Shown here piece after piece: positions 3,049 to 4,824 of a DNA stretch of 64,000 bases. The DNA is taken from assembly GCF_900696045.1 (NCBI RefSeq), contig NZ_LR216287.1, forward strand, positions 2,771,854 to 2,835,853, written 5' to 3'. This stretch comes from Candidatus Nitrosocosmicus franklandus (GTDB taxonomy: Archaea > Thermoproteota > Nitrososphaeria > Nitrososphaerales > Nitrososphaeraceae). The notes under the pieces are model-generated. The model ran no database searches and was not told where the DNA came from. It saw only the letters and a program-made list of their open reading frames with translations. Position numbers and translations under genes: made by a program. Numbering within the stretch: the stretch's first letter is position 1; each line of letters opens with the position of its first letter.

Positions 3049-4824
3049 ATGAATGAAATTAGTAAAACTGTACTGGTTACGGGAAGCGGAACCGGAATCG
3101 GACTAGCTGTAGCAAAAAAATTTGCAAAAGCAGGATATAATATCATAATTTTGGGAAGAAGGAAAGAACCCTTGATTGAGGCAGCTGCAATACTTAATAG
3201 AATTATAAGTGATAATAGATTGAACTCCAGAGTAACTTACTTTCCAGGGGTCGATGTCTCAGACTTGGATGGACTTGTCACCATGTATAACGAAATCAAA
3301 AGGGAATTTGGACATATTGATGTTATAGTCAACAACGCTGGAGTATCTGGTCCAGTAAAGGTTTTTACTAATTCAAGTTACAAAGAATTTAAAGATTGCG
3401 TCTCTATCCATCTAAGTGGTACGTTTTGGACGAGTATTAAAGGGTTAGATGTTCTGTCAAAGTCTGGCAAAATTATTACAATATCTACTTTTTTTACGGA
3501 AGAGAACAAATTCGATCAGAGACCATATAGATTCAGGACCCCTTATACTGCGGCTCAGGGTGCTAAAAATAGACTCTCTGAGTGCTTTGCATGGGAGCTA
3601 GTGCAGCAGGAAATACATGCAATAGCAACAAACCCAGGTCCGGTTCATTCGGATCGAATTTACAAGACGGTCTACCCAAAGGCTGCGGCTGAATTCCTGA
3701 GAATAGGGGGCTTTGCTGGGCTGACAAATAAACAGGTTGAAGAAGTCACATCATCACTACTCCCATATCTTGGTGAAGATGCTGAAACAATACAATCCCA
3801 AACAAAGGAAGTGGCAAAGGGACTAGTAGAACAAGACCCGAACTTGAATGTAGACGAAGCTCAAAAATTGTTAAAGGAACTATTGCAAAAAATTCAAGAA
3901 ATAGCAGAAAAGGTCCAAAGTAACACTAAGAAGATGATTGTTGACAACGAGTTCTTATCACAAGATGATGTTGCACATATGGTATTTACTCTCTCGGACG
4001 AAAGAAATGGAAAACTTCTAAATGGAAAAGTGATTCCAAATGATAGAGTTTTTTATCCTGTAAAACCGATTATCGAGAGAAAGCTAAGCTATGATCCCAC
4101 CAAGACGTTGGAAAATAAGGTAATTCTAATTACAACAACAGCCACAGCCGATGAACAACTAAGAGATATTAAAGAACTTGCTACGGCGATAGGAAAATTA
4201 AACACCAAACAGTTGATAATTTTAACTGATAAAAACGAACATGCAGAACTTTCGGAAAAGTTATTTGAAGATTTTCATCATCACAACCTAGATCTTTCTA
4301 ATGAGGACACTGTGCTGAAGGTATTTAATACAATCAATTCGCGATATGGAAGGGTGGATACAACTTTTCATTTTACCGGATCTTATGATTATGAAAGCGA
4401 TTTTGTATCCCTTAGTGCAGATAAATGGAACCGACTGGTAGAACAGTTTATTTACATCCCTCATTTGATTACTAGAGAATCAGTGTTATCGATGACTTCC
4501 CATGAAGCCCTTGACAACCCTAAGCTTTTCAAAAACTCTAAAGGTAACGTTATTATCATCGGACCGAGTGCTCCAATTGGAAAAAAAATATCTGGAAGTG
4601 TAAGAGCCAGATCAGAAGTTTTCAGAGGAGCTTTAAGACCCTATGTAACTACAGTAAACCAAGAGTTACATGACGTATTGGATTCTGAGATCAATATGAC
4701 ACTAATCTTGCAGGGAAATGTAAGCGGAGAAGCACCAAATCCCGATAGACTAAGAGAAACGCTGATAAAATTAGGTTCGCAGGAAGAATTTAGAGATAAT
4801 TTGATCTATTACATGGATGAATAA
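3049..4824 (+). CDS. Tandem double-SDR protein resembling the N-terminal half of malonyl-CoA reductase (candidate malonic semialdehyde reductase)
   Basis: 591 residues. The first Rossmann domain has TGSGTGIG at 11-18 and NNAG at 95-98. It has a TISTFF strand near 146 and a tyrosine at 166, but glutamine at 170 where SDRs have catalytic lysine. NPGPVHSDRI follows. After a charged helical insert (about 225-305), a second degenerate SDR begins at about residue 354 (LENKVILITT) and lacks a glycine-rich loop. This order, and phrases such as PGPxxSDRI after a PY motif, match from memory the N-terminal half of the bifunctional Chloroflexus-type malonyl-CoA reductase, which reduces malonate semialdehyde to 3-hydroxypropionate. 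Membership in the SDR family is clear; the pathway role (3-hydroxypropionate/4-hydroxybutyrate cycle) is inferred. A TATA-like box about 25 bp upstream suggests a leaderless mRNA. Confidence 0.75.
   Translation: MNEISKTVLVTGSGTGIGLAVAKKFAKAGYNIIILGRRKEPLIEAAAILNRIISDNRLNSRVTYFPGVDVSDLDGLVTMYNEIKREFGHIDVIVNNAGVSGPVKVFTNSSYKEFKDCVSIHLSGTFWTSIKGLDVLSKSGKIITISTFFTEENKFDQRPYRFRTPYTAAQGAKNRLSECFAWELVQQEIHAIATNPGPVHSDRIYKTVYPKAAAEFLRIGGFAGLTNKQVEEVTSSLLPYLGEDAETIQSQTKEVAKGLVEQDPNLNVDEAQKLLKELLQKIQEIAEKVQSNTKKMIVDNEFLSQDDVAHMVFTLSDERNGKLLNGKVIPNDRVFYPVKPIIERKLSYDPTKTLENKVILITTTATADEQLRDIKELATAIGKLNTKQLIILTDKNEHAELSEKLFEDFHHHNLDLSNEDTVLKVFNTINSRYGRVDTTFHFTGSYDYESDFVSLSADKWNRLVEQFIYIPHLITRESVLSMTSHEALDNPKLFKNSKGNVIIIGPSAPIGKKISGSVRARSEVFRGALRPYVTTVNQELHDVLDSEINMTLILQGNVSGEAPNPDRLRETLIKLGSQEEFRDNLIYYMDE

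Follow-up and report, generated by a model that had tools for sequence, protein, structure and literature searches.

The window analyzed here, a stretch of 64,000 nucleotides (2771854-2835853), is the end part of the 2.84 Mb single-contig genome of Candidatus Nitrosocosmicus franklandus and contains a gene for a tandem SDR protein with the layout of malonyl-CoA reductase (MCR). The gene and its features, in coordinates of the window, are the following:

3049..4824, plus strand: whole gene, MCR-type tandem SDR of 591 aa (ATG open reading frame; PDB sequence and fold matches)
3061..4074, plus strand: first (catalytic) SDR domain including the helical insert, residues 5-342 (Pfam, AlphaFold2 model)
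3079..3102, plus strand: NADP(H)-binding motif TGSGTGIG, residues 11-18 (alignment)
3487..3597, plus strand: active-site strand, loop, and helix, residues 147-183, TFFTEENKFDQRPYRFRTPYTAAQGAKNRLSECFAWE (alignment, conservation)
3526..3546, plus strand: YXXRXXY motif, Y160-R163-Y166, putatively malonate-binding by homology to MCR (alignment)
3556..3558, plus strand: invariant Gln170, replacing the catalytic Lys of YxxxK (alignment)
3634..3663, plus strand: PGPVHSDRIY, residues 196-205 (alignment)
3652..3963, plus strand: helical insert, residues 202-305, with a variable middle and a conserved helix at 279-305 (model, conservation)
4075..4821, plus strand: second, degenerate SDR, residues 343-591, without glycine motif and without YxxxK (model, sequence)
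4540..4728, plus strand: conserved C-terminal part of the second SDR, residues 498-560, GPxxPxGKK..RARxEVFRGALRPF..NQEL (conservation)

No pathway genes were found beside the SDR gene; its neighbors are housekeeping genes (DPH6, SRP54, Pus10, ArgRS) that are not conserved between families, and the neighborhood therefore gives no operon support. Upstream and divergent, at 1767-2846 on the minus strand, lies a gene for a Luciferase-like (PF00296) oxidoreductase that is unusually conserved, being 93% identical in locus L048, where the other neighbors are mostly 43-66% and SRP54 87-91% identical. In several loci of the archaeal family labeled f9 (e.g., L071:7764-8210) an ORF of ~150 aa with no Pfam match follows directly downstream of the SDR gene. 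Elsewhere in the genome of the window (G000:C1:2248573-2249174) an SDR match is split over two frames, possibly a broken gene.

Residues 6-202 match the SDR family PF00106 in Pfam (134 bits for the whole protein), and the second half gives a weak SDR match (E 2e-4) that lies below the cut-off. An AlphaFold2 model built from 20 sequences of the window's family (pLDDT 83, pTM 0.81) shows a Rossmann domain, long helices at residues 202-299, the closing portion of the first SDR, and, from residue ~343 on, another Rossmann domain; confidence is low at residues 150-161, 201-206, 292-301, and 332-342, so that part of the active-site loop is among the uncertain regions. With an SDR, a helical insert, and a degenerate SDR arranged in the same fold, the protein belongs by its layout to the MCR-type tandem SDRs. 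An earlier reading of the sequence only had described an intact SDR, a helical insert, and a degenerate second SDR; this order is borne out by Pfam and the model, but the first domain, with Gln170 and His121 in its active site, is not intact.

The first ten PDB sequence matches obtained with phmmer are MCR chains (8hi4, E 2e-33; 8hjw, E 2e-27), and the first 25 PDB fold matches of the AlphaFold model in Foldseek are all MCRs (E 8e-26 to 2e-19, most ~1e-24; query TM score 0.65-0.70 over 625-697 alignment columns). After a large drop these are followed by the tandem SDR 2et6 (E 3e-19) and by single SDRs at ~1e-13 to 3e-13. The structure 2et6, an MFE-2 tandem (3R)-hydroxyacyl-CoA dehydrogenase, resembles the protein from ammonia-oxidizing archaea (AOA) in having two SDRs per chain and a His at the Asn position of the tetrad (His121 in the AOA protein); unlike the AOA protein, it has glycine motifs in both domains, and its TM score is 0.53 compared with up to 0.70 for the MCRs. 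In a maximum-likelihood tree of the first domain, comprising 17 AOA sequences, two N-halves (MCR-N) and two C-halves (MCR-C) from two MCR species, and 15 other SDRs, AOA, MCR-N, and MCR-C are grouped against the 15 other SDRs with a support of 92/91, a value that carries a long-branch warning. The first-domain profile scores 86.8 bits with the generic SDR 4iuy and 82.1 bits with SDR3 of MCR, and the second-domain profile, searched against the PDB, retrieves generic SDRs only and is no closer to MCR, so that this half adds no sequence-level support. Because the domain-wise profiles fail to separate the protein from generic SDRs, the link to MCR rests on the whole-chain fold ranking, the tree, and a shared motif.

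This motif, YXXRXXY ending in the catalytic Tyr, occurs in none of 27 other SDRs of the class and in all of 69 relatives, which come from the families f1, f2, f3, and f9 and include some cases of one genome fetched twice. Y160-R163-Y166 align with Y743-R746-Y749 of Roseiflexus MCR-C and with Y172-R175-Y178 of MCR-N, and in Roseiflexus MCR the motif holds the malonate end in both halves (PMC10470521). R203 aligns with R785 (MCR-C) and R215 (MCR-N), and R218 lies one residue off R799 of MCR-C in the phmmer PDB alignment; Arg785 and Arg799 serve, together with Arg1164 of SDR4, CoA/malonyl binding in MCR-C. Arg1164 lies outside what could be aligned, and R526 and R530 of the second SDR may fill its role. 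Convergence of an ordinary tandem SDR on the layout of MCR would fit the domain-wise sequence scores taken alone, but the fold ranking of the whole chain, the support in the tree, and the motif in common speak against it, and we judge it to be very improbable. Homology to Chloroflexus-type MCR, which the sequence-only reading had proposed, is favored by Foldseek, phmmer, and the tree, and we consider it very likely for the AOA tandem SDR.

A match to the N-half in particular, also proposed there, is not supported. Within the MCR group the AOA sequences stand with MCR-N at 67/30, and a tree constrained to unite them with MCR-C is worse by 0.5 log units (AU p 0.43); the Foldseek ranking shows no difference between the halves, and the C-half outscores the N-half both with one sequence against the PDB (75.7 vs. 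40.9 bits) and with a profile (82 vs. 71 bits). MCR-C of Chloroflexus, Roseiflexus, and Porphyrobacter (SDR3-extra domain-SDR4; 8hi5, 8a30, 6k8s) has the same layout, is the best sequence match, and shares with the AOA protein the YXXRXXY motif with PY at its start, a Ser/Thr at the position of S731, PGPV..R, and a similar spacing between the residues corresponding to T147 and Y166, which by the alignments and published residue numbers is 19 in the AOA protein, 18 in MCR-C, and 13 in MCR-N. It differs in that the AOA protein carries Gln for the catalytic Lys, is stand-alone rather than fused, is 17% identical over the fold alignment, and has a shorter insert (R203-N325 typically 122-127 aa, compared with the 150-aa extra domain published for MCR-C). 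MCR-N (SDR1-SDR2; 8hi6, 8aew, 6k8v) likewise shares the layout, YXXRXXY, a Thr at the position of T165, a comparable length (549-579 vs. 591 aa), and the phrase PGPIESDRI (PGPVHSDRI in AOA), whereas the AOA protein has Gln for Lys182, an active-site loop six residues longer, and a lower sequence score with this half. The phrases singled out in the sequence-only reading are indeed present and nearly invariant in 69 orthologues (ISTFF, residues 145-149; PY, 165-166, 19 after T147; PGPVHSDRI, 196-204). Sequence scores and loop length would thus lean to the C-half, neither half emerging as the nearer one, and on the best reading the AOA protein joins the two Chloroflexales halves, MCR-N and MCR-C, as a third MCR-type lineage. 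A search of plasmids for bacterial MCRs with which to widen the tree found none; a scan of named genomes returned Nitrososphaeraceae-type records only, plus one weak Gemmatales match.

The residues T147, Y160, R163, Y166, and R203 are invariant in all 69 relatives, as is the NADP site, and the invariant R37-R38 after strand 2 suggests a preference for NADPH. In the same 69 sequences the catalytic Lys is Gln170, so that of the Ser/Thr-Tyr-Lys set of MCR-C only T147 and Y166 are present, and the Thr-Tyr-Lys triad of MCR-N lacks its Lys as well. Three residues past Gln170, K173 sits where Roseiflexus MCR-C has Gln, and Lys and Gln therefore look exchanged. In Roseiflexus MCR, S731/T165 and K753/K182 complete the catalytic set, the K753 mutant of MCR-C is dead, the K182 mutant of MCR-N is sharply reduced in activity, and mutation of the positions matching T147 and R203 kills or cuts activity (PMC10470521); in view of the two Lys mutants, Gln170 is what speaks most strongly against simply transferring the function of MCR to the AOA protein. 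The presence of Gln170 in all sequences would suit an MCR-derived protein that either serves AOA in some other specific reaction, with a different acyl-CoA or acid as substrate, or acts as a scaffold without catalysis. Among 31 diverse AOA, however, the active-site stretches are the most conserved (25/40 positions invariant at residues 144-183 and 23/32 at 190-221, compared with 2/57 where the insert is variable and 4/155 over the initial part of the second SDR), and neither this nor the invariant NADP site, T147, Y160, R163, Y166, and R203 would be needed in a dead scaffold; we regard such a different role as rather improbable. A plain pseudoenzyme was considered as well, but conservation peaks in the pocket, which makes this reading unlikely.

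Conservation across AOA, which the sequence-only reading had named as a test, is borne out by the distribution of the gene. In the window's family the gene is present as a single copy in 66 of 70 genomes. In the order it occurs in 282/400 genomes and in 172/209 high-quality ones, all matches being confined to the families f1, f2, f3, and f9, into which three high-quality non-matches (G055, G253, G256) also fall; if the other 34 high-quality non-matches, only part of which are listed, are taken as other families, the gene would be present in about 172/175 (~98%). Among 398 genomes of the phylum, all matches at E 1e-25 likewise come from these four families. Matches to amoA, too, fall in these families and in no other family shown. 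Several amoA matches, two of them nearly full-length, are present in the draft genome G029 (C12, C15, C27, C29). Presence throughout AOA and absence from relatives that do not oxidize ammonia is the pattern expected of a gene of the AOA 3-hydroxypropionate/4-hydroxybutyrate (HP/HB) cycle; as many AOA core genes show the same pattern, the distribution is supporting evidence only.

For malonyl-CoA reductase, step 2 of this cycle, no AOA gene is assigned in three studies (PMC4510362, PMC6038301, PMC6964070), and malonyl-CoA reductase is likewise missing from the AOA variant in a marker set from 2026 (PMC12894919). The malonic semialdehyde reductase of N. maritimus is assigned to the Fe-alcohol dehydrogenase Nmar_1110, as stated in PMC4510362 and PMC5797428. 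This enzyme, of an unrelated family, thus covers the neighboring step, and the semialdehyde reductase role given to the tandem SDR in the sequence-only reading falls on a step already assigned in most AOA, the one without a gene being the preceding malonyl-CoA reduction. The genome of the window has a probable Nmar_1110 homologue. In N. maritimus itself the SDR gene probably sits close to Nmar_1003, as interpolated from the match G148:C1:917107-918801 on the assumption that G148 is strain SCM1. Both an Nmar_1110-type gene and the SDR gene are present in 18 of 18 f1 and f9 genomes tested, so that the SDR is no replacement there, whereas the Nmar_1110-type gene is absent from 6/6 f2 (Nitrosocaldaceae-like) and 2/2 f3 genomes, which keep the SDR gene. 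In these genomes (f2: G070, G086, G097, G105, G112, G119; f3: G071, G087) the semialdehyde reductase step is without a known gene. The absence agrees with what the available part of Abby 2018 states for the Fe-alcohol dehydrogenase in N. cavascurensis; SDRs ~30% identical to Caur_2614 are named there as possible semialdehyde reductases, and in that part no tandem SDR is singled out, the malonyl-CoA step is not proposed, and the motif is not described (PMC5797428). An MCR-N-like malonic semialdehyde reductase, acting alone or backing up the Fe-alcohol dehydrogenase, would accord with this proposal, with the f2 and f3 genomes, and with the PGPxxSDRI phrase common to the AOA protein and Chloroflexus MCR-N. 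It is weakened by the co-occurrence of both genes in f1 and f9 and by the dependence of SDR alcohol formation on the Tyr-Lys pair, which is missing here and whose loss in the K182 mutant of MCR-N is so costly, and it appears to us unlikely.

In the Sulfolobales cycle malonyl-CoA is reduced by an aspartate-semialdehyde-dehydrogenase-type enzyme, and in Metallosphaera one enzyme reduces both malonyl-CoA and succinyl-CoA. Such an enzyme would share the reaction with the AOA protein but is unrelated in fold. Each of 20 AOA genomes has exactly two members of this type above the cut-off and no third paralogue, the two in the genome of the window being ArgC and Asd, so that, among enzymes of the Sulfolobales type, no alternative candidate for step 2 is visible. 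As an MCR relative present in one copy in every AOA lineage, the tandem SDR is the best available candidate for this step. We therefore propose, with a probability of about 0.5, that the gene may encode a stand-alone NADPH-dependent MCR that converts malonyl-CoA to malonic semialdehyde in the AOA HP/HB cycle.

For this candidate MCR we infer substrate, cofactor, CoA site, and every catalytic step as follows. NADPH would be bound by the first SDR, the malonyl carboxylate would be gripped by Y160-R163-Y166 and probably R203, and the helical insert together with the second SDR would form the CoA pocket. T147 and Y166 would polarize the thioester carbonyl, hydride transfer would be followed by release of CoA-SH, and the semialdehyde would be handed on to a second enzyme for reduction, in most AOA the Fe-alcohol dehydrogenase. 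Succinyl-CoA reductase is likewise without an assigned gene in AOA in the literature consulted for the cycle, and the carboxylate motif would hold either acid; a succinyl-CoA reductase, or a dual malonyl-CoA/succinyl-CoA reductase, is nonetheless unlikely, if slightly less so than the other roles weighed above, since the motif residues match the malonate-holding ones of MCR and the longer succinyl acid would presumably need a deeper pocket. The fuller form of the malonyl-CoA reductase reading is put forward tentatively, at somewhat less than even odds: a third MCR lineage, with an active site of His121-Thr147-Tyr166-Gln170 instead of Asn-Ser-Tyr-Lys, would stop at the aldehyde, supply malonyl-CoA (perhaps also succinyl-CoA) reduction in all AOA, and link their cycle to the 3-hydroxypropionate bicycle of Chloroflexus.

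With a single-copy, named candidate in every AOA family, the gap in the cycle becomes testable with one protein preparation. Should the proposal be true, the AOA cycle would have this enzyme type in common with the 3-hydroxypropionate bicycle of bacteria rather than with the cycle of Sulfolobales. An MCR that is separate by nature and has no catalytic Lys would then also help to show how the aldehyde escapes over-reduction.
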